NCBI GenBank assembly: GCA_902778105.1
Contig: CACYWN010000009.1
Span: 1 to 64,000 of the forward strand
Origin: an uncultured Bacteroidia bacterium
GTDB taxonomy: Bacteria > Bacteroidota > Bacteroidia > Bacteroidales > UBA932
Direction: 5' to 3'
DNA length: 64,000 nt
Below are positions 23,432-36,951 of the stretch, piece by piece. Both the position numbers and the translations under genes were made by a program. The notes beneath the pieces are model-generated. The model had not been told where the DNA came from. It saw nothing but the letters and a program-made list of their open reading frames with translations, and ran no database searches. The first letter of the stretch is position 1, and every line of letters starts with the position of its first letter.

Positions 23432-23443
23432 GGTCTTGTTCTG

Positions 23444-23470
23444 GATTCTTTCGCTTCACTCAGCATGACA
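23444..23470. repeat. Short hairpin repeat, half-copy
   Basis: GATTCTTTCGCTTC...AGCATGACA, matching the left half of the element at 7611-7676. It directly precedes the long-armed element. Confidence 0.6.
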
Positions 23471-23474
23471 TGGG

Positions 23475-23587
23475 CGAAAGAAGGGTATCCTTTTTCAAAC
23501 CTGTGCCACCCTCGGCATCATAAGAGGGAGGGGCCCTTTAGGGAGGGGTCGCGAAGCGACGGTTTGAAAAAGGATACCCTTCTTTCG
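23475..23587. repeat. Long-armed hairpin element, copy 1
   Basis: A perfect 27-bp inverted repeat (23475-23501 with 23561-23587) encloses a 59-base core. The core has a TGCC-accctc-GGCA hairpin, two AGGGAGGGG runs separated by CCCTTTA (four G-runs at 23526-23548, a possible G-quadruplex), and GTCGC-gaa-GCGAC. The same core in reverse orientation, with totally different arms, is at 35213-35332. Lies between nrdD and nrdG. Confidence 0.85.
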
Positions 23588-23596
23588 GACTGCTGA

Positions 23597-25582
23597 TTAC
23601 TCGTGGATCACCCGATCCTTGAGCTCCGCGAGCTTGCCGGAGTTCCAGCGGTTGGTGGTGCCGACGAGGTAGCCGGTGATGCGCTGCAGGGTGTCGATGT
23701 GGTGACCGTGGCAGTGGGGGCACTCGTGAAGGTCCTTCTCGGCATTCTCGAAGCCGCAGTCCAGGCAGCGGTTGCGGTTGTGGTTCACGGAGCCGTAGCC
23801 GATGTCGTACTTGTCCATCAGGTCCACGATCTGCATGATCGCCTCCGGATTGTGGGTGGCGTCACCGTCGATTTCCACGTAGAAGATGTGGCCGGCGTTT
23901 TCGTACTTGTGGTACGGGCCCTCGATCTTCGCCTTGTGCTCCGGGGTGCACTTGTAGTACACCGGGATGTGGCTGGAGTTCGTGTAGTAGTCCTTGTCGG
24001 TGATGCCCGGAAGGATGCCGAAGGTCTTCTTGTCACGCTTGGTGAACTTGCCGGAGAGGCCTTCCGCCGGCGTGGCGAGGAAGGTGAAGTTGTGCTGGTA
24101 GGTCTCGGCGAAACCGTTGATCTTCTCCGCCATGTGGGAGATGATCCGCAGGCCCAGTTCCTGAGCCTCTTCGCTCTCGCCGTGGTGCTTGCCGACCAGG
24201 GCGATCAGGCACTCCGCGAGACCGATGAAGCCGATGGAGAGGGTTCCCTGGTTGATGACGGATTCGATGGAGTCGTTCTCGTCCAGCTTCTCGCTGCCCA
24301 GCCAGAGGCCGTTCATCAGGAGCGGGAACTGCTTCTTGAGGGCGGTCTTCTGGAAATCGAAGCGCTCGTTCAGCTGGCGGGCGGCGATATCGAGCGCCCA
24401 GTCCAGTTTCTGGAAGAACTTCTGGATCCGCAGGTTCTTGTCCTGCTCCTCCTGCATGGCCTCGATGCCCAGCTTCACGATGTTGATCGTGGTGAAGGAC
24501 AGGTTGCCGCGGCCGATGGAGGTCTTGGGACCGAACTTGTTGCCGTACACGCGGGTGCGGCAGCCCATCGTGGCGACCTCGTGCTCGAAGCGGCGCGGAT
24601 CGTCCGCCTTCCAGGCGTCATCCTGGTTGTAGGAAGCATCCAGGTTCAGGAAGTTCGGGAAGAACCGGCGGGCGCTCACCTTACAGGCGAAGCGGTACAG
24701 GTCGTAGTTGCGGTCGCCCGGAAGGTAGCTGACACCTCTCTTCTTCTTCCAGATCTGGATCGGGAAGATGGCGGTGGAACCGTTGCCTACGCCCTCGTAG
24801 GTGGTGTTCAGGATCTCGCGGATGATGCAGCGGCCTTCGGCGGAAGTGTCCGTTCCGTAGTTGATGGAGGAGAACACGACCTGGTTGCCGCCGCGGCTGT
24901 GGATGGTGTTCATGTTGTGCACGAACGCCTCCATGGCCTGGTGGACGCGGCCCACGGTCTGGTTGATGGCGTGCTGGAGGGCGCGGTCGCGGCCCTGCAG
25001 GCCGATGAGGTCATGCTTGAGATAGTCGTCGATCTCCGCCTTCTTGAGTTCGCTGTAGTCGGTGTTGAACAGGTCGCTGACCTGGTCCACCTCCTCCTCG
25101 AAGGTCTTGCGGACGAACGGGGCGAGATAGAAGTCGAAAGCCGGGATGGCCTGGCCGCCGTGCATTTCGTTCTGCACCGTCTCCATGGAGATGCAGGCGA
25201 GGACCGACGCCGTCTCGATGCGCTTGGCCGGACGGGACTCGCCATGGCCGGCTTTCAGGCCGTACTCCAGGATCTTGTCCAGGGGGTGCTGGATGCAGGT
25301 GAGGGACTTCGTGGGATAGTAGTCCTTGTCGTGGATGTGGATGTAGTTCTTGGCGACCGCCTCGCGGACCGGGTCGGACAGCAGGCACTCGTCCACGTAG
25401 CTCTTCGTGGCCTCGGAGGCGAACTTCATCATCATGCCCGCCGGCGTATCGGCGTTCATGTTCGCATTCTCGCGGGTGATGTCGTTCACCTGGGCGTCGA
25501 TGATGGTCTGGAAGATCTCGTTGGTCTTCGCCTTGCGGGCCATGTTCCGCTTGTTGCGGTAGCGGATGTACTCCTTCGCCAC
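23597..25582 (-). CDS. nrdD: Anaerobic ribonucleoside-triphosphate reductase, main part (frameshifted gene)
   Basis: A class III ribonucleotide reductase that reduces NTPs to dNTPs anaerobically. This frame carries the catalytic barrel (NMNADTPAGMMMKFASE, YIHIHDKDYYPTKSLTCIQHPL, FSSINYGTDTSAEGR), a C-terminal zinc site (CLDCGF...CPHCH) and the glycyl-radical motif (WNSGKLAELKDRVIHE). The N-terminal ATP-cone is in another frame (25486-25812). The frames join if one C is added to a C5/C4-rich run at 25591-25600, giving MNSPPPRQEVAKEYI, which is the expected linker. So this is one gene with a single-base deletion or a homopolymer error. Confidence 0.93.
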   Translation of the reverse strand: MAKEYIRYRNKRNMARKAKTNEIFQTIIDAQVNDITRENANMNADTPAGMMMKFASEATKSYVDECLLSDPVREAVAKNYIHIHDKDYYPTKSLTCIQHPLDKILEYGLKAGHGESRPAKRIETASVLACISMETVQNEMHGGQAIPAFDFYLAPFVRKTFEEEVDQVSDLFNTDYSELKKAEIDDYLKHDLIGLQGRDRALQHAINQTVGRVHQAMEAFVHNMNTIHSRGGNQVVFSSINYGTDTSAEGRCIIREILNTTYEGVGNGSTAIFPIQIWKKKRGVSYLPGDRNYDLYRFACKVSARRFFPNFLNLDASYNQDDAWKADDPRRFEHEVATMGCRTRVYGNKFGPKTSIGRGNLSFTTINIVKLGIEAMQEEQDKNLRIQKFFQKLDWALDIAARQLNERFDFQKTALKKQFPLLMNGLWLGSEKLDENDSIESVINQGTLSIGFIGLAECLIALVGKHHGESEEAQELGLRIISHMAEKINGFAETYQHNFTFLATPAEGLSGKFTKRDKKTFGILPGITDKDYYTNSSHIPVYYKCTPEHKAKIEGPYHKYENAGHIFYVEIDGDATHNPEAIMQIVDLMDKYDIGYGSVNHNRNRCLDCGFENAEKDLHECPHCHGHHIDTLQRITGYLVGTTNRWNSGKLAELKDRVIHE

Positions 25583-25812
25583 TTCCTGGCGGGGCGGGGG
25601 CTGTTCATCAGCAGGTTTTCAACGACATCCTGGATTTCCTCCACGGTCATCTCCTCCTTTTCGAGGGTGGAGATGGCATGGGCGATCTGGGCTGCGAGGA
25701 CGATATCCTCGCCGTTCTCGGTCACGTCCATCGCCTTGAGGATGGCGGCGACGATCTTCTGGTTGTTGAAATCAACGCGTCTTCCGTCGCGTTTCAGTAC
25801 ACGCTTTACCAT
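25486..25812 (-). CDS. nrdD: NrdD ATP-cone part, N-terminal fragment of frameshifted nrdD
   Basis: The first 70 residues (MVKRVLKRDGRRVDFNNQKI, VLAAQIAHAISTLEKEEMTVEEIQDVVENLLMNS) are an ATP-cone, the allosteric dATP/ATP-binding domain of ribonucleotide reductases. After residue 70 the frame turns into Arg/Ser/Thr-rich out-of-frame sequence, so the real part ends near 25600. As written the protein is truncated and the catalytic part would need its own start at 25582. Confidence 0.85.
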   Translation of the reverse strand: MVKRVLKRDGRRVDFNNQKIVAAILKAMDVTENGEDIVLAAQIAHAISTLEKEEMTVEEIQDVVENLLMNSPRPARKWRRSTSATATSGTWPARRRPTRSSRPSSTPR

Positions 25813-26119
25813 AGTGATAGTGTCAGTTGTCGGCAGCGCCGGCGCCCTTTTCAGCGAGCCGGATGCCTCAGGTTTATGTTTCTACTTTTTCTGTTTCGGT
25901 CAGAGTCCCGGTGTGGAGGCCGGGACTGCAAAGACAAAGATAAGTCATTCCCTGCAAATTTACTCCCATTATCCCGGAAAAAGTTATTAACAAATGCTTT
26001 AAAAAGCTGTTAATTTACTGACTTTAAGCGTTATACAGAAATATTTAATTTAGAATTCTTCAAATTTGGAACTTTGTTGTTACTTCCGGACCGGAGTTTT
26101 CAACAAGCCGCGGAAAAGC
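25813..26119. other. Intergenic region upstream of nrdD
   Basis: 307 bases with no gene. Minus-strand -7 elements TATCTTTG (25935-25942) and TAAATTTG (25955-25962) give nrdD a leader of about 120 nt. That leader contains the hairpin AGTCCCGG-N8-CCGGGACT (25904-25927). Nearer EnvC it is AT-rich; no riboswitch or NrdR-box consensus was recognised. Confidence 0.55.
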
Positions 26120-27328
26120 CTATTTCAGCCACTTTTCCGGGTCCTGCGGCATCCGTTCCTTCCAGAGCTGGAAATGGAGCTGGTCCTCGCCGGAGATGGT
26201 GTCCACGACCCCGAGGGCCTGGCCTGTCTTCACCTTGTCGCCCGCCTTGACCGAAACGGACTTCAGCTTGCAGTAGAAGGTGAAATAGGAGCCGTGCCGG
26301 ACCAGGACGCACTGGTTGTAGCCGGGGATGACGACGATCTGGGCGACGGTCCCGTCAAAGACGGCCCGGGCCTGGGTCCCCCGTGCGACAGCGAGGGTGA
26401 CGCCGTTGTTGAACGGCAGCTTCACATTCCTGTAGACGGGATGGTAATGCTGGCCGTAGGATTCGACGACCGTACCCTCGACGGGCCAGGGCAGCCGGCC
26501 GCGGTTGGAGGCGAAATTCTTGGAGAGCGCCTCGTCCACCGTCGTGGACGTGCTCTTGCCGCCGGACGACGCGGCTTTTCCGGTCTCGGTGGATTTCTTG
26601 TTGTTCTTGGCGGTCGCCTTGCGGATGATCTCGGCGATTTCCCGGTTCAGGGCCTCCACCTCGCGGTTCTTCTTCTGGAGTTCCTGCTGATATTTCTTCC
26701 GGTCCTTCTGCAACTGGGCGACGAGTCCGGCCGATTCACTCTCCTCGCTGCGAAGGCTCTCCACGTCGGACTGCCGCTGCGACCGGAGCACTTCCGCATC
26801 CGACCGCAGGGAGGACAGACGCTGTTTCTCCACTTCCAGGGAGGCCTGGGTCTCCTGGATGCGCTGGGCCTGGGTCGACATTTCCCTGGAGAACCCGCGC
26901 AGATAGCCGAAACGGCGGACGGCCTGTCCCAGGTTCTCGCTGGAGAGGATATACATGTACCAGATCCGGCTGTCGCGGTTCTTGTAGGCGCTCCGGACCA
27001 GCCGGTCATAATACAGGGACAGGGTGTCGTGGCGGGCCTGCAGGCGGTCGATCTCCTGCTGGCGGACCCGCATGGAATCGTCCAGGGCGCGGATTTCACG
27101 GTCGCTTTCGGCAATCAGTTCCTGCCGCGCCGCAATCTTCCGACGGACCAGTTCCAGGTCCGTCAAGGCCCGGTTGCTGGAACGGGAATTGTCCTTGAGC
27201 CGGCGGTTGATCTCTGCGATTTCCTTCTCCAGTTTCGCTTTCCGGCTCTCCTGGGAACGGGTATCCTGCGCCGATGCCGCCGCCGCGGCGAGCAGCAGGA
27301 GCAGGACGATATGAAGGACTTTCCTCAT
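26120..27328 (-). CDS. EnvC-like murein hydrolase activator (coiled coil plus degenerate LytM domain)
   Basis: A 402-residue periplasmic protein: signal peptide (VLHIVLLLLLAAAAASAQ), a long coiled coil at residues about 25-250, a Ser/Thr/Lys linker, and a C-terminal M23/LytM domain. In the domain the usual metal ligand motif H-x-G-x-D is replaced by FNNGVTLAV and H-x-H by QLHFQL, so it is probably inactive as a peptidase and works, like E. coli EnvC, by activating an amidase at division sites. Overlaps the TPR gene by 4 bases. Confidence 0.9.
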   Translation of the reverse strand: MRKVLHIVLLLLLAAAAASAQDTRSQESRKAKLEKEIAEINRRLKDNSRSSNRALTDLELVRRKIAARQELIAESDREIRALDDSMRVRQQEIDRLQARHDTLSLYYDRLVRSAYKNRDSRIWYMYILSSENLGQAVRRFGYLRGFSREMSTQAQRIQETQASLEVEKQRLSSLRSDAEVLRSQRQSDVESLRSEESESAGLVAQLQKDRKKYQQELQKKNREVEALNREIAEIIRKATAKNNKKSTETGKAASSGGKSTSTTVDEALSKNFASNRGRLPWPVEGTVVESYGQHYHPVYRNVKLPFNNGVTLAVARGTQARAVFDGTVAQIVVIPGYNQCVLVRHGSYFTFYCKLKSVSVKAGDKVKTGQALGVVDTISGEDQLHFQLWKERMPQDPEKWLK

Positions 27329-29037
27329 CTACCGATGGCTTTCAGCCGCTCGGCGACCCGGGTGTCCAGGTCGGGAACCTCGCCTCCCGTATTCCTGGCC
27401 TTGGCCTGGCCCCAATAGACCTGGGCCAGGTCGTACTCGCCAAGGGCATAGAGGACCTCGGCGTAATGGTCCAGCATCACGGCGCTGTCCTTGCCGCCGT
27501 ACAGCATGGCGTGCTTGAAGAAAGGCTTCGCCTCCAGGTCCTTCCCCATCAGGTGCAGGATCCAGGCGAACGTGTCCAGGTAGGTGGCGTTATCCGGCTC
27601 GGCCTCCACCGTTTTCTTGGACATCGCATAGGCCTTCTTGAGTTTCTTGCCCTCCTCGCTCAGGTAATAGGCGTAATTGTTCAGGACCGGCGCATAGTTT
27701 GGATCCATCTTGAGGACCTTGTCATAGGCCTTGTAGGCCGACTTGGAGTCGCCCTTCAAGTGATACATGTCCCCGATCTGGGCCCAGGAACTCTTCACGA
27801 GTTCGGTGTTTTTGGGCTCGCGGGCGGCCATGTACCGGCAGTTCTTGATGATGGAGTCGTAATCCTTGAGATTGTAGTCCGCCAGGTTCAGGTATTCCAT
27901 GAAGCCCAGCTCCTGGAAACGGTTGAACGCGTCGATGCTGCGGTCCCGCACCTCTTCCCACTGCTCCGCCATCATCAGGATCTGGATGCAGCTGGCGGTC
28001 TGGGTCAGGCTGGAAGGATACAGGTCGGCCGACGTGCGGAAGCAGTCGATGCCCTGCTCCATACGTCCCGTGGCGTAATAGTAACCGCCTGCCGTGGACA
28101 GGACCGTACTGTCGGAGGGGTGCCGCTGACGCAGGTGCTCCACCATCGCATCAAACCCGTCCCGGTGCAGCGTAATCAACTTCGGATCCAGGCTGCGCGT
28201 GAGGTTGGCCACGTACATTCCCTTGGCCTCCACGGGCACATTGTCATTGTCGATGAAACTGTCGATGACGGCAAAATACTCGGGATAGCGGCGCGTCGTC
28301 CGGTAGACCTCGGACTTTCCAAGCAAGGCGGGGACATAGTCGCCCTGGGTCTGGAGCGCCTCCTCGTAGCACGCGAGGGCCAGGGAGTCGTTATATTCGG
28401 AAAGGTAATAGTCCCCCATCATGGACAGGACGGAGGGAGAGGTGAAGCGGTCGTTGAAATCCTCCAGCGCAGCGATGGCTTCCTCGCCCTTTCCCTGCTG
28501 GCGGAGGATGTCATAGCGGGTGCGGGCGATCTGCTCGCCGGGGCCCGAAAGCCTTTCGATGTCGTCCAGGGCCTTGAGCGCCTCGTCGAGTTTCTCCTGC
28601 CGGAGGTACAGGTTCAGGAGGTCGTACTGGACCTCCGTCTTGTCGGGAAACTCGGAAAGGATGCTCTCCAGCATCTGGACGACCATTTCGTCCTCGCCCA
28701 TGGCGCGGTAAAGGTCGGCCAGGCGCCGCTTGTACCAATAGTTGTGCGGGTCCAGTTCCACGGCCTTCCGGAGGTGGGTCACGGCGGCGTCGGCATGGTC
28801 CAGCATCGCCTCGCTCAGTCCCAGGTAATAATGGACGGCATCGTTGTCGGGAGCGGCCTTGGAAAGGGTCCCGAGCAGGGTCCGCGCTTCGGCGTAGGAA
28901 CGGTTATTATAGAGGGCGACGGCGTCCACCAGCTGGTTTTCAACGCTTTGTGCGGAGGCGAAAAAGGCTGGCAGAAGCAGCAGCCCCACAAGGATGATCC
29001 TTCTCATCATGCTCATTTGCTTTGCAATCTTCTCCAT
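27325..29037 (-). CDS. Exported tetratricopeptide-repeat protein
   Basis: 570 residues: signal peptide (RRIILVGLLLLPAFFASAQ) and many TPR helices, for example AVALYNNRSYAEARTLLGTLSKAAPDN, AVHYYLGLSEAMLDHADAAVTHLRKAVELDP, and YLDTFAWILHLMGKDLEAKPFFKHAM. Probably a periplasmic scaffold. It is translationally coupled (ATGA overlap) to the EnvC-like gene, suggesting a joint role in envelope or division. The ATG at 29037 lies 9 bases after a TATTTTTG element; internal ATGs at 29016 and 29010 are alternatives. Confidence 0.88.
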   Translation of the reverse strand: MEKIAKQMSMMRRIILVGLLLLPAFFASAQSVENQLVDAVALYNNRSYAEARTLLGTLSKAAPDNDAVHYYLGLSEAMLDHADAAVTHLRKAVELDPHNYWYKRRLADLYRAMGEDEMVVQMLESILSEFPDKTEVQYDLLNLYLRQEKLDEALKALDDIERLSGPGEQIARTRYDILRQQGKGEEAIAALEDFNDRFTSPSVLSMMGDYYLSEYNDSLALACYEEALQTQGDYVPALLGKSEVYRTTRRYPEYFAVIDSFIDNDNVPVEAKGMYVANLTRSLDPKLITLHRDGFDAMVEHLRQRHPSDSTVLSTAGGYYYATGRMEQGIDCFRTSADLYPSSLTQTASCIQILMMAEQWEEVRDRSIDAFNRFQELGFMEYLNLADYNLKDYDSIIKNCRYMAAREPKNTELVKSSWAQIGDMYHLKGDSKSAYKAYDKVLKMDPNYAPVLNNYAYYLSEEGKKLKKAYAMSKKTVEAEPDNATYLDTFAWILHLMGKDLEAKPFFKHAMLYGGKDSAVMLDHYAEVLYALGEYDLAQVYWGQAKARNTGGEVPDLDTRVAERLKAIGR

Positions 29038-29046
29038 GTCCGTTTA

Positions 29047-29054
29047 CAAAAATA
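29047..29054 (-). promoter_or_regulatory. -7 element of the TPR-EnvC operon
   Basis: TATTTTTG on the minus strand, 9 bases before the ATG at 29037. It lies between divergent genes. Confidence 0.5.
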
Positions 29055-29090
29055 ATACAAAATCACGGAATTTTTACGAAATTTGTGTTG

Positions 29091-29711
29091 ATGAACTTTT
29101 TTCCAGGGCGGATGAAACATTTATTCGGCAAATTGCATCTAATAACCTGGACAACATCGGATGACCCTCCTGCGGGTGGCAGTGCCCTGGAACGACTGAT
29201 CCCGGCCTGCCGGAGCGGAGACAGGACCGCACAGAAACGCCTGTTCGACGCGCTCGCACCCAAGATGATGGCACTCTGCCTCCGCTACGTCGGAGACCGG
29301 CCCACGGCCGAAGACGTGCTCCAGGAGGGATTCATTTCGTTGTTTTCCAGGCTCGACAGCTATTCGGGGGCGGGATCCTTCGAAGGCTGGGCCCGAAGGA
29401 TCTTTGTCAACACTGCCCTGATGCATCTCCGCAAGACCGATGCCCTCAAACTCAGCGACGACATCGGCGAAGCCCGCGGCCTCTTCTCGGAGGAGGCCAC
29501 CCCGGTCCAGAAAATCGGCTACCGGGAACTGACGGGGCTGATTGCGAAACTGCCCCCCGATGCCCGCACCATTTTCAACATGTTCGTCATCGAAGGCTAT
29601 TCGCACAAGGAAATCGCGCAGACGCTGGGCCTCAACGAGGCCACGACGCGTTCCAAGCTCCAACGGGCGAGGATCAGGCTGCAGGAAATGATCAAAGGAC
29701 TTGAAAAATGA
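29091..29711 (+). CDS. ECF-type RNA polymerase sigma factor
   Basis: A 206-residue sigma-70 family protein with only regions 2 and 4. Region 2: LFDALAPKMMALCLRYVGDRPTAEDVLQEGFISLF and SFEGWARRIFVNTALMHLRK. Region 4: LPPDARTIFNMFVIEGYSHKEIAQTLGLNEATTRSKLQRAR. The ATG at 29091 was chosen over 29022, which precedes a non-conserved stretch; 29112 is also possible. It overlaps the next gene by 4 bases (ATGA), so the pair is a unit, and the partner is probably its membrane-bound controller. Confidence 0.92.
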   Translation: MNFFPGRMKHLFGKLHLITWTTSDDPPAGGSALERLIPACRSGDRTAQKRLFDALAPKMMALCLRYVGDRPTAEDVLQEGFISLFSRLDSYSGAGSFEGWARRIFVNTALMHLRKTDALKLSDDIGEARGLFSEEATPVQKIGYRELTGLIAKLPPDARTIFNMFVIEGYSHKEIAQTLGLNEATTRSKLQRARIRLQEMIKGLEK

Positions 29712-30916
29712 AAGAGAACGAGTTTGACATATATGTAAGGAACCTGATGGACGGGGCGGAGGAATCCGTTTCCCCGGACCTGTGGAAAGGGGTGGAAGCC
29801 GGCCTGGACCGGACTGCCCGGAAGCGTGTGGTTCCTGTCTGGGTCTGGCGGAGCCTGGCGGGAGCCGGCATCGCCGCCGCCGTGGCAGCCGCCGTCGTGC
29901 TCCTGACCCCCGGAAAGAACCTTTCTAACCAACCAACCATACAACCCGTCGCCCAGGCGACAGACGACGAACCTCTTCCGGTCGAAACCGGGCCGGAAGA
30001 GGGAACCGTCATCCCCATGGCGCAGCAGGTCACCCGCCTGAAGGGGCGCAGCGCCTATGTGCCCGAAAGCGACACCCCCATCATCACCTCCCCGGAGGAA
30101 ATCCTGACGACCGAAGCCGTCGTCGACGAGCCCGAGCGCAAGCCGGACGCGATCATCGGCCTTCCCAAACAGCATACGGAAGCCTCCTTCACCTCCGACG
30201 AGGAAGCTTTCCGGCAGCTGGCCTTCGAAGAGCACAGGATCCGCCAGCGCGGTCACTTCTCGATGAGCGTCCTGGGGGACATCCAGTCCAACATGCGTCC
30301 GGACAGCCCGGGCGCCAAGACCCGCCGGGCACCCGGCTTCTTCGTGATGCCCGCCCCCACCCAGACCGGAATCTACCGCGAGGGCAACGAGTACAGCTTC
30401 GGCCTGCCGGTCTCCGGCGGCCTGAGCCTCCGCTATGACTTCAACCAGCGCTGGGGCATCGGTACCGGCATCCAGTATACGAATCTCAGCCGCTCCTTCC
30501 TGGGGGACTACCACGTCGTTGAGAACGGCGCTTTCACGAAGCAGCTCTTCGATACCGACATCACCAACCAGCAGCACTACGTCGGCGTTCCGCTGAACCT
30601 GTATTTCAACATCGTCAACACCGGCAACTGGAACTTCCACGTAATGACCGGCGGTACGGCCGAAATGCTGGTGGACAACCATTTCCTCATCCACGACAGC
30701 GAGGGTGACATCCACCTCCACCAGAAGGTGGACCGTCCCCAGTTCTCCGTGGGCGTGGGCGTGGGCGTCGAATTCAAGTTCACGCCGAACGTGGGCATCT
30801 ACTTCGACCCTACGCTCCGTTACTATTTCGACAACGGCCAGCCGCGCTCCATCCGGACCATCCAACCGCTCCGCATGGACTTCGAAGCGGGCCTCCGCTT
30901 CTCGCTGGGACAGTAA
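29708..30916 (+). CDS. Membrane protein with anti-sigma-like N-terminus and beta-barrel-like C-terminus
   Basis: 402 residues. The first 45 are charged and cytoplasmic in style (MKENEFDIYVRNLMDGAEESVSPDLWKGVEAGL), then one membrane segment (WRSLAGAGIAAAVAAAVVLL), a long acidic/Pro-rich linker, and from about residue 180 a domain of alternating beta strands like an outer-membrane porin (GLSLRYDFNQRWGIGTGIQYTNL, YVGVPLNLYFNIVNTGNWNFHVMTGG, GVGVGVEFKFTPNVGIYFDPTLRYYF). Fused to an inner-membrane anchor such a barrel cannot sit in the outer membrane in the usual way. It may be the sigma factor's regulator; no function is established. Confidence 0.82.
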   Translation: MKENEFDIYVRNLMDGAEESVSPDLWKGVEAGLDRTARKRVVPVWVWRSLAGAGIAAAVAAAVVLLTPGKNLSNQPTIQPVAQATDDEPLPVETGPEEGTVIPMAQQVTRLKGRSAYVPESDTPIITSPEEILTTEAVVDEPERKPDAIIGLPKQHTEASFTSDEEAFRQLAFEEHRIRQRGHFSMSVLGDIQSNMRPDSPGAKTRRAPGFFVMPAPTQTGIYREGNEYSFGLPVSGGLSLRYDFNQRWGIGTGIQYTNLSRSFLGDYHVVENGAFTKQLFDTDITNQQHYVGVPLNLYFNIVNTGNWNFHVMTGGTAEMLVDNHFLIHDSEGDIHLHQKVDRPQFSVGVGVGVEFKFTPNVGIYFDPTLRYYFDNGQPRSIRTIQPLRMDFEAGLRFSLGQ

Positions 30917-30938
30917 AAAACGTTAATTTGACCCCTGA

Positions 30939-30975
30939 AACAACACAAGTTATCAACAGCTTGTGTTGTTTTTTC
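30939..30975 (+). terminator. Terminator after the sigma factor operon
   Basis: AACAACACAAG (30939-30949) and CTTGTGTTGTT (30960-30970) form a perfect 11-bp stem followed by TTTTTT. The right arm contains TTG at 30966-30968, which is 18 bases before the TACCTTGG (30987-30994) of the next gene, so terminator and promoter overlap. Confidence 0.88.
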
Positions 30976-31006
30976 ATTTTCCTCTCTACCTTGGCGGAAA
31001 AAAGCC

Positions 31007-32212
31007 ATGCGAAAACCTGCTTTCTTTCTGCTCTGTTTCCTCCTGTCATCCTGCATCCGGGACACGCTGTTTCCCGGGACGCCCCGGTTCTCCCACGAAA
31101 ACGGCCGGCCGGGTCACGGGACCGACAGTACGGACATCATCCCGCCCGGCCCTCACGTCTATCTGACCGCCGTCCGTTTTCCGGACGGATTCGCCTGGGA
31201 GGAGGACACCTGCGCCGTGGACGGGCCGGTATGGATCGACCTGTACCGGGACGGCAGACTCGTCCGGAGCATCCCTGCCGGCTCCTCCATCCACGCCGAC
31301 ATGCACCGGTTCCGGAACGGCCGTCTGTACACCGACTTCTCTTCGGGGGAAGAGACGGTGGTCTGCCAGGACGGACTCGAACTGTTCCGGTTTTCCGGCC
31401 GGGAAGCGCTCCGGGGATTCCTGGTCCGGGAGGACGGCGTCCACACCCTGGGCCAGGACCGCGACGGGAACGGATTCACCTACCGGATTGACGGAAGGGC
31501 TGTTTTCCGGAGCGAAGCGGGGCTTGTCTGCGGCGACCCCTGTACCCCGGGACGGCCGGGCGGAGCCCTGACGGAAGAGGACGAATGGGTATTCTATGCC
31601 TATGGGGTCGGGGTGGACGGAGCGACGGAATATTATATCCTTCGGAACGGGGAGCTGTACAAGACCCTTCCCAAAGGGTCGGGAGGAACCGTCCGGGATA
31701 TCCAGGTCATCCACGGAAATGTGTACCGGATCCGGAACCAGACCCGGGTGACCGTTCTCGAATCCGACGAGAAGACCTCCACACTCCCGGTCCAAGGAAG
31801 GGATATGCTGGTCCGGGGACGGATCGTTCCGCTGGAAAAGGACGTGCTGGTCCTCGGAGCCGTCGCCTCTCCGGACGGAACCCGGCGATGTTTCCTGTTC
31901 TCGGAAAAGGGGAACGCGTATCCGACCGACGGGAAGACAGATATTACCGAGCTGGTGGCCGACGGGGGCGTCGCTGCCTGGATGACGGTCGATGCCGCCG
32001 GACAGCCGCTCCGGCTGGAGCGCAGCGACGGGAATGGAAAGTCCCTTCCGGGGAATGTACGGCTGATTTCCGGCCATTGCATGCTGCTCCGGGAGGGACA
32101 TGCCTACCTGGCCCTGACCGGCCGGAACGGGAAAGCCAACCGCCTGTGGGTGGACGGAGAGGAGACGGAGATTCCGTTCAACGGCTATTTCACTTCCGTA
32201 ACGGTGGAATAA
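31007..32212 (+). CDS. Lipoprotein of unknown function, propeller-like
   Basis: 401 residues with a lipoprotein signal (FFLLCFLLSSCIRD). The mature part has repeated short beta motifs of the form YYILRNGELYKTL, FTYRIDGRAVFRS, CFLFSEKGNAYPT, suggesting a beta-propeller-like fold of about 40-50 residue blades. No family was recognised and no function is proposed. The ATG lies 12 bases after a TACCTTGG element. The end of the gene carries the promoter of ispE. Confidence 0.75.
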   Translation: MRKPAFFLLCFLLSSCIRDTLFPGTPRFSHENGRPGHGTDSTDIIPPGPHVYLTAVRFPDGFAWEEDTCAVDGPVWIDLYRDGRLVRSIPAGSSIHADMHRFRNGRLYTDFSSGEETVVCQDGLELFRFSGREALRGFLVREDGVHTLGQDRDGNGFTYRIDGRAVFRSEAGLVCGDPCTPGRPGGALTEEDEWVFYAYGVGVDGATEYYILRNGELYKTLPKGSGGTVRDIQVIHGNVYRIRNQTRVTVLESDEKTSTLPVQGRDMLVRGRIVPLEKDVLVLGAVASPDGTRRCFLFSEKGNAYPTDGKTDITELVADGGVAAWMTVDAAGQPLRLERSDGNGKSLPGNVRLISGHCMLLREGHAYLALTGRNGKANRLWVDGEETEIPFNGYFTSVTVE

Positions 32213-32216
32213 TTGC

Positions 32217-32224
32217 TATCTTTG
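32217..32224 (+). promoter_or_regulatory. -7 element of ispE
   Basis: TATCTTTG begins 4 bases after the previous stop and ends 4 bases before the ispE ATG; the transcript must be leaderless. Confidence 0.65.
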
Positions 32225-32228
32225 CGGC

Positions 32229-33065
32229 ATGATCTGCCGCCCGAACGTCAAACTCAACCTCGGCCTCCACGTACTCCGCCGCCGCCCGGACGGCTACCAC
32301 GACCTGGAGACCCTCTTCCTGCCCTGCCCGGCGTACCACGACACGCTGGAAATCATCACCGGAGACGATTTCAGCCGGACTTCCGCCCGGCTGCAGTCCG
32401 GGTATTCCGGCGGACAGGTGGCCCAGGGCATCTCCCCTGACGGGAAATTGATGGTAACCATTGCCCGGAAAGCAGGCGTGGACTGGAATCCGATGGACGA
32501 CCTGACGGCCCGGGCCTATTTCCTGCTGGCGGAGCGGCACAAGCTGCCCCCGATGAAAATCTATCTGGAAAAAACCTCACCCGTGGGGGCGGGACTCGGC
32601 GGCGGATCGGCCGATGCGGCTTTCGCCCTCCGGATGATGGCGGATCTCGCCGGGCTGGACCTTCCGGACGAGGAACTCGCCACACTTGCCGCCCGCCTGG
32701 GAAGCGACTGCGCCTTTTTCATCTATAACCGGCCGATGCTCGGCACCGGACGGGGCGAAGTGCTCGAGCCCCTGGATGTGGACCTGTCCGGTTACCGGCT
32801 GGAAGTGACGGTTCCTGAGGGTATCGCCGTCTCCACGGCCGACGCCTACCGGGGAATCGTTCCCCGGCAGCCGGCCTGCCCGCTCCGCGAAGTCCTCGCC
32901 CAACCGGTCGAAACGTGGAAGGACCTTCTCGTGAACGATTTCGAGACGACGGTTTTCGCCCGACACCCCCGCCTGGCGGAAATCAAGCAGTCCCTCTACG
33001 AAGGAGGTGCCGTCTATGCCTCGATGTCCGGAAGCGGTTCGGCGCTTTACGCCTTTTATCGATAA
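32229..33065 (+). CDS. ispE: 4-diphosphocytidyl-2-C-methyl-D-erythritol kinase
   Basis: Phosphorylates CDP-methylerythritol in the MEP pathway to isoprenoids. The 278-residue GHMP-kinase has the N-terminal motif CRPNVKLNLGLHVLRRRPDGYHDLET, the ATP loop SPVGAGLGGGSADAAFALR near residue 117 and the C-terminal GGAVYASMSGSGSALYAF. Length is standard. Start fixed by the adjacent -7 element. A terminator follows at 33075. Confidence 0.96.
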   Translation: MICRPNVKLNLGLHVLRRRPDGYHDLETLFLPCPAYHDTLEIITGDDFSRTSARLQSGYSGGQVAQGISPDGKLMVTIARKAGVDWNPMDDLTARAYFLLAERHKLPPMKIYLEKTSPVGAGLGGGSADAAFALRMMADLAGLDLPDEELATLAARLGSDCAFFIYNRPMLGTGRGEVLEPLDVDLSGYRLEVTVPEGIAVSTADAYRGIVPRQPACPLREVLAQPVETWKDLLVNDFETTVFARHPRLAEIKQSLYEGGAVYASMSGSGSALYAFYR

Positions 33066-33074
33066 AAAATTCAC

Positions 33075-33108
33075 AAACGGTCTTCCACGCATCCGGGAGG
33101 CCGTTTTT
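33075..33108 (+). terminator. Terminator after ispE
   Basis: AAACGG-t-CTTCC and GGgAGG-CCGTTT pair around an 8-base loop, followed by a T-run. Confidence 0.7.
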
Positions 33109-33175
33109 CATCATCCTGATAAGAGAAAGCAAGAAAAAATTCCGCCACATTTTGCGGTTTCTTGCCCTCCACGGA

Positions 33176-33207
33176 ACCGTTTTTCCGTAGGTTTACCGAA
33201 AAACGGT
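33176..33207 (+). promoter_or_regulatory. Hairpin directly before the comM start codon
   Basis: ACCGTTTTTC (33176-33185) and GAAAAACGGT (33198-33207) are a perfect 10-bp inverted repeat; the ATG follows one base later. The 12-base loop holds TAGGTTTA, a weak -7-like element. It may be an operator or a start-site-masking RNA hairpin. Confidence 0.45.
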
Positions 33208-33208
33208 C

Positions 33209-34774
33209 ATGCTGGTTTATATACATGGAGCGAAATGCGTCGGGATCGAAGCGGTTCCGGTGACGGTGGAAGTGGACATCACCCTGGGTATCGGGATCCA
33301 TCTGGTAGGACTCGCCGACGCGGCGGTGAAAGAAAGCCTTCTCAGGACGGTGACTGCCCTGCAGGCCAAAGGATTCCGCATCCCCGGAAAGAAGATCGTC
33401 ATCAACCTGGCCCCTGCGGACCTCCACAAGCAGGGCAGCGGATATGACCTCCCCATCGCCCTGGGCATCATCGCCGCTTCCGGGCAACGGGAACTCCCCG
33501 GATTGGACAAGTATCTGATCATGGGAGAATTGGGACTGGACGGAAGCATCCGCTACGTGGCGGGAACGCTGCCCATGGTGGAGTCTGCGGTCCGCCGCGG
33601 ATACCGGGGCGCCATCCTGCCGGAGCGGTCGGCCCTGGAGGCGGTCGATTTCCAGGAGACCCTGGTCTTCGGGGTACGGACCCTGGACGACGTGTTCCGC
33701 ATCCTGGAAGAGAAGGAAGACCCGTCGGACCTGCTCATTTGGAACACGGAATGCTATGCCAGGGCCTTGCGCGAGGAGCAGGAGCGGCCCGCTACGGCCG
33801 ATTACATGGACTTCGCCGACATCCTGGGGCAGGAGAATGCGAAAAGGGCCGTGGAAATAGCAGCTGCGGGCTCTCACAACCTGATTTTCATCGGTAGTCC
33901 GGGCAGCGGGAAGAGTTCGATGGCGAAGGCGGTGGCGGGCATCCTGCCGCCGATGACCAAGGAAGAGTCGGCCGTGACTTCCAAGATCTGGTCGGTCGCA
34001 GGCAAGGCGACGGGCCGCCTGGGCCTGATGCGCCAGCGTCCTTTCCGTGCCCCGCACATCTCCGCGTCCAAGGCAGCCATCCTGGGCGGCGGCAGCGGGG
34101 AGAACATCCAGCCCGGTGAGGTGAGCCTCGCTTCGGGAGGCGTCCTCTTTGCCGATGAATTCTGCGAGGCGCCCAAATCCACCCTGGAAGCCCTCAGGGG
34201 CCCGTTGGAAGACCGGAAAGTCACCATCTCCCGTCTCAAGGCGAAGATTGTCTATCCCGCTTCCTTCATGCTCATCGCCGCTTCCAACCCCTGCCCCTGC
34301 GGCTACTATGGCGAAGGCGACCGATGCACCTGCACCGTCGGCGCCCGTGCGGCCTATCTCGCGAAGCTGAGCGGGCCCGTCATGGACAGGATCGACCTGC
34401 AGGCCTGGATCAAGCCGGTGCCCACCTCCGTGCTCGTCGAAGGACGCAAGGGAGAACCTTCCGCCGCCATTGCGGAACGGGTCCGGAAAGCCCGCGACAT
34501 CCAGCGGGAGCGGTTCCGGGGCACGGGCATCTTCACCAATGCGGAAATGTCCCCGAAGCAGCTGGAACGCTTCTGTCCCCTTTCCGGCGACTGCAAGGCC
34601 ACCCTGGAGAAGCTGATCGACCGCCTGGGCCTGTCGGCGCGGGCCTACACCCGGATCATCAAGATCGCCCGGACCATCGCCGACCTCGCCGGCCTTCCCG
34701 ACATCCTCCCCGCCCATCTGCTCGAAGCCGCCGGCTACCGCTTCCTGGACAGAAGAAACATTCTGGATTTATAA
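33209..34774 (+). CDS. comM: ComM/YifB-type Mg-chelatase-like AAA+ ATPase
   Basis: 521 residues with the three-part ComM layout: an N-terminal S5-like domain (VDITLGIGIHLVGLADAAVKES, NLAPADLHKQGSGYDLPIALGI), an AAA+ core with Walker A IGSPGSGKSSMAK near residue 230 and LFADEF Walker B, a Cys-rich NPCPCGYYG...CTC segment, and a C-terminal helical domain. ComM homologues are hexameric helicases that drive branch migration during natural transformation. No competence genes are adjacent. Confidence 0.94.
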   Translation: MLVYIHGAKCVGIEAVPVTVEVDITLGIGIHLVGLADAAVKESLLRTVTALQAKGFRIPGKKIVINLAPADLHKQGSGYDLPIALGIIAASGQRELPGLDKYLIMGELGLDGSIRYVAGTLPMVESAVRRGYRGAILPERSALEAVDFQETLVFGVRTLDDVFRILEEKEDPSDLLIWNTECYARALREEQERPATADYMDFADILGQENAKRAVEIAAAGSHNLIFIGSPGSGKSSMAKAVAGILPPMTKEESAVTSKIWSVAGKATGRLGLMRQRPFRAPHISASKAAILGGGSGENIQPGEVSLASGGVLFADEFCEAPKSTLEALRGPLEDRKVTISRLKAKIVYPASFMLIAASNPCPCGYYGEGDRCTCTVGARAAYLAKLSGPVMDRIDLQAWIKPVPTSVLVEGRKGEPSAAIAERVRKARDIQRERFRGTGIFTNAEMSPKQLERFCPLSGDCKATLEKLIDRLGLSARAYTRIIKIARTIADLAGLPDILPAHLLEAAGYRFLDRRNILDL

Positions 34775-34782
34775 ATAATGAT

Positions 34783-34790
34783 TATCTTTG
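34783..34790 (+). promoter_or_regulatory. -7 element of tsaE
   Basis: TATCTTTG ends 6 bases before the tsaE ATG at 34797; the in-frame TTG at 34788 lies inside the element and is not the start. Confidence 0.65.
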
Positions 34791-34796
34791 CAGGCG

Positions 34797-35231
34797 ATGA
34801 CACACCAAATCCACATCCGCGACCTGCAGGACCTGGACCGGGCCGCGGGAGAATTCCTCGAGGCCATCGGGGACAACAAGCTCATCGCCTTCTATGCACC
34901 GATGGGCGCGGGCAAGACGACCTTCACGACCGCGGTCTGCAAGCGGCTCGGCGTCAGCGAGGACGCCGTCAGCTCTCCCACCTTCGCCATCGTCAACGAA
35001 TACCGCACCGGCTCGGGCGAGCCGATGTATCATTTTGATTTCTACCGGATCGAAAGGCTCGAAGAGGCCTACGACATCGGCCTCTACGACTATCTGGACA
35101 GCGGCAGCCTGTGCCTCATGGAATGGCCCGAAAACATCGAGGAACTTCTTCCCGAGCAGACCCTGAAGGTCCATATCCGGGTCAACCCCGACAACAGCCG
35201 GACGCTTTCCTGGGAGGACGGGAGGCAGTGA
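34797..35231 (+). CDS. tsaE: tRNA threonylcarbamoyladenosine biosynthesis ATPase TsaE
   Basis: A 144-residue P-loop ATPase that supports TsaB/TsaD in making the t6A base of ANN-decoding tRNAs. Walker A is APMGAGKTTF near residue 38; SSPTFAIVNEY and the YHFDFYRI and CLMEWPENIEELLP motifs are diagnostic. Normal length. The last six codons and the stop are part of the left arm of the hairpin element at 35213-35332. Confidence 0.95.
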   Translation: MTHQIHIRDLQDLDRAAGEFLEAIGDNKLIAFYAPMGAGKTTFTTAVCKRLGVSEDAVSSPTFAIVNEYRTGSGEPMYHFDFYRIERLEEAYDIGLYDYLDSGSLCLMEWPENIEELLPEQTLKVHIRVNPDNSRTLSWEDGRQ

Positions 35232-35332
35232 CCTCCAGAATCGTCGCTACGCGACCCCTCCCATAAATGGGCCCCTCCCTCTTATGTGCCGAGGGTGGCA
35301 CAGATTCTGGAGGTCACAGCCTCCCGTCCTCC
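35213..35332. repeat. Long-armed hairpin element, copy 2
   Basis: Arms of 30 bp (35213-35242 and 35303-35332) with one mismatch enclose a 60-base core that is the reverse complement of the core at 23502-23560, with a few paired changes (GTCGC-tac-GCGAC here, -gaa- there; CCCattTATGGG here, CCCttTAGGG there). The arms are unrelated to those of copy 1. The left arm includes the last 18 coding bases of tsaE plus its stop; the right arm ends inside the stop codon of the convergent CotH gene. It should terminate both genes. Confidence 0.85.
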
Positions 35333-36951
35333 TATAAATTCCGAGGTATGACCTCCAGCCGCTCCTGATAGATCTTTTTCAGGCGGGCGACGGCGTCATG
35401 GAAGGTCATGTTCTCATCGCCGTTGATGATATGCCCCCCGTTCATGGAGGCGTCTCCGGCCGGATTCCACATCGCGAAGTTCAGCTGGGCGGAGGCGGCG
35501 AGGCGCCGTTCGCTTTCATCCATGAAGTCCGGGATGGTCCGCAGCTGCGGCAGGAGTTCCTCGAACCGCTCTTTCAGCCGGGCCTTGAACGCCGGGTCCT
35601 TCATCAGCTGCTCATACCAGATGGCCTTCCCATTGACCAGCCCCGTACGGGCGCGGGGCGACGTGTTGTAGGAGAGGACGCCCCAGTCGAAGTCCCAGCA
35701 TGGACCGGCCACGAGTTTTCCACCCCGGTCCTTGTGCATGAAGACGCTGCCCGGGTTGCCCAGCTCGTGGTTGCCCATCACTTCGAAAACGATCCAGTAA
35801 TCGATGAAGGAATCCTCGTCCAGAAAGGCCCTCCAGCCCTTCTCCGGATCCTGGAAATCAGCGCCGTACAAGGCATTGGCCGCATCGGAGACATATTGCT
35901 TGATATAGGTGAACTGCTGGGTGGTGAGGTCGTCCTCATCGGGGTATTTGACCCCGAAGGGAATGCCGTTTCCCCACTGGCCATTATGTCCATGCGGATC
36001 GGTCCACTGATATTTGTTGTCGTAATGGAAGTCCAGTTCCAGCAGGTAGCCGCCCGTGACGGCGTTGCCGGTATTGTCCTGCGGGGTCATCTCGGTGATG
36101 TCCACCCGGTAATTGTCCACCCGGACCTGCTCGATCAGCAGGTAGGAGCCCTGGTGCTTCCCGTTCAGGACCAGTTCCACCGGCACGCAGCCGGGCGTCC
36201 AGGCGAGCGAGGTCATCGACGCCACCTTCATCGACACGAGATTCCGCATCAGGGTGCGGTCCATGAAATTGGCCAGCAGCACCCAGCGCTTGTGCCTGTG
36301 CATCCCGAAAATGGACTGCTTCTCCTCCAGTTTGATGAGATAAGGCTTCTTGGGCCATTCCCAGGTCGTGTTGCCGCGGCCGCGGATCTGGCAGGCGACC
36401 GGATCCAGGCCGGGCAGCCCTTCCACGCCGCGGATCCGGATTTCCGCCGGGACGAAATCGGTCTTGGACTTCACCGCCCGGCCGTTCTCCGTCTGGACAT
36501 AGACCACGGGAAGGCCGGTCTTGACCGTTCCGGCCGGATCGTTTTCCGAGAGGATCCGGATGGCGGGAGACTGTACATAATACGTGTTTCCCGAGGCCGG
36601 ATCCCGCTGGACGACGGCGATATGGACGTCCCGCTCATAGCTTTCGCCCAGTCCGGCATCCTGGATGACGGCCCGGTATGAGCCCTTCACCTCCCCGGGG
36701 GTGATTCCCTTGACGAAGAATTCGACCGGTTCCTTTCCGCCGGCAAGCAGCAGCTTGACTTCCCCCACGGGAGCATCCTTGTCTTCCACCCAGAACGGGA
36801 CGTCCACACTTTCCCCAAAGGGAAGGACCAGTGAGGTAGCCCCCACGCCGACCGAGCGCACGACCGGTTCGTTTCCTGAAGGATCCTCCTTCTCGGAACA
36901 GGCCAGGCAGACAAGGGCGGCGAGGACGACGGCACGCAGGAACTTTCTCAT
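35332..36951 (-). CDS. CotH-family lipoprotein (PUL 2)
   Basis: 539 residues, lipoprotein signal (VLAALVCLACSEKED). After an N-terminal Ig-like region, the CotH domain shows ACQIRGRGNTTWEWPKKPYLIKLE, HKRWVLLANFMDRTLMRN, VELVLNGKHQGSYLLIEQVRVD and GPCWDFDWG. CotH proteins are atypical protein kinases in spore coats, and Bacteroidales members are often found with glycan-utilisation genes, where their substrate is unknown. Last gene of PUL 2, 6 bases after GH30. Confidence 0.88.
   Translation of the reverse strand: MRKFLRAVVLAALVCLACSEKEDPSGNEPVVRSVGVGATSLVLPFGESVDVPFWVEDKDAPVGEVKLLLAGGKEPVEFFVKGITPGEVKGSYRAVIQDAGLGESYERDVHIAVVQRDPASGNTYYVQSPAIRILSENDPAGTVKTGLPVVYVQTENGRAVKSKTDFVPAEIRIRGVEGLPGLDPVACQIRGRGNTTWEWPKKPYLIKLEEKQSIFGMHRHKRWVLLANFMDRTLMRNLVSMKVASMTSLAWTPGCVPVELVLNGKHQGSYLLIEQVRVDNYRVDITEMTPQDNTGNAVTGGYLLELDFHYDNKYQWTDPHGHNGQWGNGIPFGVKYPDEDDLTTQQFTYIKQYVSDAANALYGADFQDPEKGWRAFLDEDSFIDYWIVFEVMGNHELGNPGSVFMHKDRGGKLVAGPCWDFDWGVLSYNTSPRARTGLVNGKAIWYEQLMKDPAFKARLKERFEELLPQLRTIPDFMDESERRLAASAQLNFAMWNPAGDASMNGGHIINGDENMTFHDAVARLKKIYQERLEVIPRNL

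Follow-up and report, generated by a model that had tools for sequence, protein, structure and literature searches.

The window examined here, a 64,000-nucleotide stretch of contig CACYWN010000009.1 from an uncultured Bacteroidia bacterium (Bacteroidales, UBA932; GenBank assembly GCA_902778105.1), carries two copies of a hairpin element in which a conserved core is enclosed by a pair of long inverted-repeat arms. Copy 1 lies on the plus strand in the gap between nrdD-like and nrdG-like open reading frames (ORFs), its core strand opposite to both. It consists of a left arm at 23475..23501 (27 nt), a core at 23502..23560 (59 nt), and a right arm at 23561..23587 (27 nt), the left arm being a perfect reverse complement of the right, so that the inverted repeat is 27 bp and perfect. 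The core comprises a P2 hairpin with the loop ACCCTC, the pseudoknot partner GAGGG, and the hairpins P3 (CCC/GGG) and P4 (GTCGC/GCGAC); its plan matches that of the 35 copies counted below, and covariance model R1 matched positions 23488-23574.

Copy 2 lies on the minus strand between convergent tsaE-like (34788-35231) and CotH-like (35332-36951, minus) ORFs; gene names around both copies are readings of the ORFs, with no family search behind them. In core orientation, its left arm occupies 35303..35332 (30 nt), its core 35243..35302 (60 nt), and its right arm 35213..35242 (30 nt), and the arms form a 30-bp inverted repeat with a single T/T mismatch. The first base of the left arm is the last stop codon base of the CotH-like ORF, and the right arm contains the final codons and stop of the tsaE-like ORF. 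The outer TCCTCC of the right arm, which belongs to the tsaE-like ORF, is present in 2 core-less relatives, with TCTTCC in 4 others. Relative to copy 1, the CCC/GGG hairpin has gained an A-T pair and the GTCGC/GCGAC hairpin differs in its loop only.

Folded as single-stranded DNA, copy 1 reached −42.2 kcal/mol (z −11.49) and copy 2 −48.6 kcal/mol (z −10.05), and for neither did any of 200 shuffles fold as well. Two matches to the core pattern lie in the window, where 0.01 were expected. An earlier note on this DNA had described two hairpins with a shared core and separate inverted arms, and the observation was confirmed for both copies.

A dispersed element family

Searches of the genome and its relatives for the core, with extraction of the flanks as the earlier note had proposed, recovered further copies whose flanks are self-complementary and mostly differ between copies. 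In the genome of origin (2.66 Mb), the core pattern was found at 15 places with up to 3 mismatches, and the covariance model found 30 copies at an E value of 0.1 or less. The 15 pattern-found copies follow one plan, a core of 59-110 nt inside mutually pairing arms, the weakest being L014 with 4 mismatches in 21. Within a sample of the genus, the pattern (1 mismatch) was present in 20 of 61 genomes, own genome included, and a reversed control gave one match overall. Model scans of the bacterial family and of the order, for which stricter filters were used and weak matches lost, returned matches in 23 of 59 genomes (10 of 25 genera) and 2 of 99 genomes, respectively, each time with the own genome included. 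A scan of named genomes had Bacteroidales assemblies among the matches listed, many of them named from ruminants.

Viral contigs gave no match to one exact core pattern, and phages and plasmids gave none to copy 1. In Rfam, nothing reached the gathering score at either window copy or at elements in eight other loci; PhotoRC-I, MIR8622, and Vax2os1_2 overlap elements in the eight-loci scan far under that score. No paper on the element was recognized by title or abstract start among the matches listed from the open-licence literature. We conclude that both hairpins are members of a family of small elements dispersed in gut Bacteroidales.

The core has an RNA-like fold

The fold was counted over 35 copies, of which 32 had an arm score of 19 or more and a core of up to 72 nt and three represented other core forms. 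With 31 nested and 5 pseudoknot pairs counted, 90.8% of cells were paired, and in a control with slid partners pairing fell below 48%. Change on both sides was seen for 23 of 36 pairs, including all 14 arm pairs, the arm pairing in this count being pre-selected because 32 of the 35 copies had been chosen by arm score. The pseudoknot CCCTC:GAGGG changed to CCCGT:ACGGG in 1 of the 35 sequences, which is all of the counted pseudoknot variation; other matching combinations were seen by eye. Model R1 selects for arm pairing and the pattern searches do not; the latter favor conserved cores and so overstate core conservation. The fold of the core is RNA-like, and the compensating changes in its small hairpins that had first been read from the window, where they are thin between the two copies, are clear across the 35.

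Longer core forms (L031, L056, L085, L014, L058, and L321) have extra hairpins between P2 and P3 and sometimes share a locus and similar arms with the short form. At L143:4415, the core is truncated to 28 nt yet lies between arms that are perfect over 28 bp.

Arms are self-complementary and mostly copy specific

The arms were assessed in 159 distinct copies, a set that excludes duplicates and copies up to 45 bases from a contig end; three matches without the left core motif (L019, L076, and L084) were left out. Arms are mostly 25-30 bp long, self-complementary, and different from copy to copy. They were perfect in 53 copies, were at least 18 bp long with at most 2 mismatches in 134, and had an arm score of 15 or more in 148. 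In the latter set, the paired fraction was 0.82 or more to position 25 and was at chance (about 0.3) from position 30, and the position-wise arm consensus was weak. Left arms of the 15 own copies had a mean identity of 0.50 (maximum, 0.77), compared with 0.30 for shuffled arms. All 15 own arms lacked any other match in the genome below an E value of 0.9, so that none was found to be a copy of another place in it, and in genome G350 11 of 12 arms matched only their own copy at that level; the arm of L433 also matched two other element copies.

Arm mismatches on the core strand were mostly G.T (91, versus 19 A.C). With one copy per arm cluster the counts were 33 and 11 (p 0.0013; 52 clusters, one with 101 copies). 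By rough ORF calling, the G.T:A.C ratio was 45:7 where flanking genes run antisense to the core and 31:6 where they run sense. Since the bias is alike in both gene orientations, it is tied to the core strand, and its direction argues that single-strand pairing also matters.

As side observations, the arms of L063, in G048, extend about 60-70 nt, and several other G048 contigs (L061, L062, and L064-L066) end in or beside a copy; both are possible assembly effects.

Some copies do share arms. Such subfamilies are found in G016 (11 of 20 fetched copies, with small differences), G310/G347, G350 (5 of 20 fetched copies), and the IS1182-linked copies of the own genome; in the comparison that gave the G016 and G350 counts, the finder missed 13 of 16 G333 loci. 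In the own genome (G000), an IS1182-family element is present in two copies (contigs C32 and C40), each with a related hairpin near each end (L517, L518, L521, and L522). The transposase of the one copy tested matched NF033551 at 360 bits, and the other copy is 86% identical. L521, L522, and the stand-alone hairpin L524, which lies about 0.7 kb from the IS1182-family copy with the same arms, have one arm pair, and L517 and L518 have another; by eye, the arms of L512 and L514 are mostly the same. Because some subfamilies share arms, arms can be inherited. The idea that the element ends are local thus holds with a reservation, in view of these subfamilies and of a mean arm identity among the own pattern-found copies that exceeds that of shuffled arms. 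Conserved arms in other copies, which the earlier note would have taken as a refutation, accordingly do occur in part.

Core-less orthologous sites lack intact arms

Flank queries in relatives, followed by by-eye and scripted comparison, identified, across 14 of the 15 own loci, 86 orthologous segments that lack a core; the copy 1 locus contributes 28. In 85 of the 86, no arm sequence was matched exactly over 11 nt or more, a test that is blind to decayed arms; the 86th (L321) proved to be an occupied long-core copy missed by the filter, and control arms from other loci matched over at most 10 nt. Inspection by eye found decayed remnants in 5 of the 86: a core-less 12-bp hairpin (L264), a loopless palindrome (L246), a single arm (L286), and partial units (L274 and L291). 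The core-less hairpins and arm remnants at L264, L246, L286, and L291 are as palindrome instability would give, and the one-arm state at L286 may be a remnant or a pre-insertion state. Overlap with native flank was limited, in the cases inspected by eye, to the outer 3-7 nt of the arm, as with TCCTCC of the tsaE-like ORF at window copy 2 and TACAG at L430. Several native sites are start/stop overlaps, most core-less sites inspected are plain gene junctions without a palindrome, and L104, the sister of L200, is cleanly empty. By eye, candidate target-site duplications were seen at L200 (ATGAATAG/ATGGATAG) and L010 (CTCAT), and none was evident at L015.

Genome G069, the closest relative, shows the range of states at the 15 own sites. 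Its core is inverted at 4 (L001, L003, L005, and L009) and in the same orientation at 3 (L007, cut by the contig end; L011; and L014, with a different core form). It has a core-less hairpin at L002, another hairpin at L004, and a remnant at L006, and it is empty at 5 (L008, L010, L012, L013, and L015). A native half-arm was considered for the L006 site and rejected; the site is read as a remnant because outgroups L300-L302 show no such sequence.

Comparison with empty sites in relatives, which the earlier note had called for, thus turned up no intact arms and a few decayed remnants. One of its two alternatives, in which an inverted duplication of the flank at insertion creates the arms, finds no support in the 85 segments that lack an arm match.

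Arm changes are mostly paired and cores are often inverted between orthologues

Orientation was compared among 163 copies that had an arm score of at least 15 and 130 bases of sequence to either side, with pairs whose flanks were at least 99.5% identical dropped. Across 126 orthologous occupied pairs, the core had the same orientation in 79 and was inverted in 47; at a flank identity of 90% or more (12 pairs), the numbers were 7 and 5. Window copy 2 and its G069 counterpart, for example, have inverted cores between arms that are 97% identical.

Substitutions were counted in the 51 of these pairs with a flank identity of 80% or more, an arm identity of 62% or more, and no gaps. Both sides had changed and stayed Watson-Crick at 184 arm pairs, with 4 other double changes and 64 one-sided changes; 106 of the 184 fall in 21 inverted-core pairs. 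Double changes were adjacent in 52 cases versus 32.9 expected under random placement. One-sided changes in same-orientation pairs were G.T in 25 cases, A.C in 2, and other in 13. Arm identity dropped with flank identity (rho 0.62) and was lower in inverted pairs (p 0.02 at a flank identity of 82% or more), both values being from non-independent pairs. Similar arms can also hold different core forms, as in L056/L189 (arms 96%, cores 41% identical) and L031/L110 (arms 86%, cores 46%). Together, the inverted cores and clustered double changes argue for arm-to-arm copying as well as selection. Strong selection restoring the pairing was the other alternative of the earlier note; the 184 paired versus 64 single changes bear out the restored outcome, and selection is probably not the sole cause.

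Copies inside open reading frames

By a simple, hand-made ORF test, 58 of 159 copies lie inside long ORFs. At L001 and L003, one frame is open in every orthologous sequence compared (9 of 9 at each locus), whether or not the element is present, with lengths equal modulo 3; in-frame insertion was not consistent at L007. All 11 copies at the two in-frame loci are open as assembled, and inverting the core would introduce a stop into 4 of the 11. This openness argues, modestly, against assembly flips. At the corresponding positions of L306, L297, L254, L309, and L307, unrelated short repeats stand in the open frame where other species have the element.

Origin and maintenance of the arms

Template switching has been reported to homogenize the arms and invert the spacers of yeast repeats with spacers of 2-5 bp (PMC8604942) and to be able to create and maintain RNA hairpins (PMC8794818). 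The latter source regards paired change together with loop inversion as the strongest support for template switching and as extremely rare, with 6 cases. As both reported outcomes are seen here, with 106 paired changes in the 21 inverted pairs, we favor, with a probability of about 0.58, a family of non-autonomous mobile hairpins whose arms are kept paired by template switching and a single-strand filter. The short element (about 110-200 bp) would insert as a unit of arm, structured core, and arm, probably through an enzyme acting in trans, and the arms would be its own inverted ends rather than copies of the target. During replication, the polymerase would switch template between the inverted arms, so that one arm is copied onto the other, and a switch between strands would leave the core inverted. 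Repeated switching would let arms drift, locus by locus, to unrelated sequences while self-complementarity is kept, and a filter that tolerates G.T over A.C would come from the core strand pairing with itself, be it as RNA or as single-stranded DNA.

Several observations weigh against this account. Template-switch loci have spacers of 2-8 bases in the accounts given by PMC8604942 and PMC8794818, versus a conserved fold of 58-136 nt here, and template switching alone explains neither the G.T excess nor the strong conservation of the core. There is overlap among the orthologous pairs, which are not independent of one another, and the sources are metagenome-assembled genomes or draft assemblies, in which a core lying between perfect arms could be misoriented during assembly. 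G350 has near-identical cores with differing outer arms; among 47 segments from relatives at 7 of these sites, 44 have no family core, and the other 3, all at the L426 site, hold family elements with other arms or cores. Such turnover of the outer arms is fast for drift after insertion. As template switching explains this turnover poorly, a tentative and fairly unlikely variant stays alive, in which each transposition renews both arms together, the first being synthesized with numerous changes and the second copied off the first through fold-back priming. Element ends would then be defined by self-complementarity and not by sequence, and each new copy would have arms of its own.

Selection alone, with each copy a folded core-strand RNA and ordinary compensatory substitutions keeping its arms paired, would account for the covarying core, pseudoknot changes included, and for the G.T excess (91:19 overall; 25:2 in same-orientation orthologues). 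However, with the bias alike for flanking genes running against the core strand (45:7) or with it (31:6), there is no assurance that this strand is transcribed locally, inverted cores suit a strand-specific local role poorly, and double changes are clustered; we consider selection alone unlikely, if the most serious of the rivals. The orientation differences in 47 of 126 pairs, and similar arms around different core forms (L056/L189 and L031/L110), would also be produced if a recombinase exchanged or inverted the core as a cassette, with the palindromic arms as its attachment site. This is improbable, as core-form changes could be internal indels and no such enzyme was found; of candidate families, Y1 transposases alone were examined, and these are present, irrespective of the element, in 21 of 22 genomes.

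Two further possibilities place the origin of the arms at the target. Insertion into, or replacement of, pre-existing hairpins would be in keeping with the related end hairpins of the two IS1182-family copies and with the inverted repeats among the targets of IS1272, of the IS1182 family (PMC5678879). Core-less orthologous sites, however, lack intact arms and are mostly plain junctions without a palindrome where seen, which makes this route doubtful in the extreme. Duplication of the flanks at insertion could explain the overlap of the outer 3-7 nt of some arms with native flank (window copy 2, L010, L200, and L430), the single arm at L286, and the varying length and sequence of G350 outer arms. 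With no exact 11-nt arm match in 85 of 86 core-less segments, the 86th a mis-tagged occupied copy, and controls reaching the same 10 nt at most, we regard it as the least probable origin.

For RNA and palindromes alike, the evolutionary origin of long perfect stems and of paired substitutions is unsettled. With more than 100 naturally replicated cases, the family allows paired changes of the arms to be scored along with inversion of a long, asymmetric core, the very combination singled out in PMC8794818, which reports 6 cases. The family also illustrates how a mobile element could lose recognizable ends and escape annotation by homology.

Comparison with known systems

Classical miniature inverted-repeat transposable elements have ends that are shared by sequence, among copies and with an autonomous partner. 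The present elements resemble them in being short, numerous, and located at gene junctions and in genes, but share arms in subfamilies only, and no autonomous partner was established for them. Palindromic elements of Rickettsia (RPEs), about 100-150 bp in size, are likewise dispersed and found in frame within genes, as here at L001 and L003; compared by description and not by sequence, they differ in that here pairing is kept, arms are locus specific, and the bacterial group is another one. RPEs are reported to lose repeat identity over time (PMC6649704). The same paper describes perfect inverted repeats of up to 284 bp in coding sequences of Nematomorpha mitochondria, a further likeness, and its authors discuss repeat conversion via template switching; its abstract and discussion describe no shared core for those palindromes.

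Repetitive extragenic palindromes (REPs) are also short, multicopy, and found at junctions and in genes, and GT pairs in stems have been noted for them too (PMC3733652). REPs are 20-40 bp long with a GTAG or CGTC tag; here, the unit is about 110-200 bp, outside the REP definition by tag and size, and by eye the reverse strand of the main core form starts with CGTC while other forms differ. The REP-associated Y1 transposase (RAYT) was rejected as a partner, since PF01797 was found in 21 of 22 genomes (17 of 22 above the cut-off) with no correlation with element occurrence. As a separate observation, a weak Y1 transposase-like ORF (L523:359-1255; 31 bits, under the 80-bit cut-off) adjoins a family hairpin (about 1501-1601) and an ORF read as mutS-like.

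Template-switch (quasipalindrome) loci are similar in arm homogenization, spacer inversion, and paired stem changes, and paired, clustered arm changes together with spacer inversion were found here, in non-independent pairs and drafts only. The IS1272/IS1182 family is similar in the related hairpins near both ends of the two copies described above; IS1272 is reported to replace target inverted repeats (PMC5678879), whereas most core-less sites here have no inverted repeat.

Variation at the copy 1 junction

The nrdD-nrdG junction (window 23432-23596; L205-L232) is variable, and relatives have no insert or different repeats there. G069 has a second kind of hairpin where the window has copy 1 (L204:663, in its nrdD-nrdG gap). 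This kind, also seen at L162:285, has perfect, site-specific arms of 22-24 bp, and the loop TCCG-A(6-7)-GTC is common to both places.

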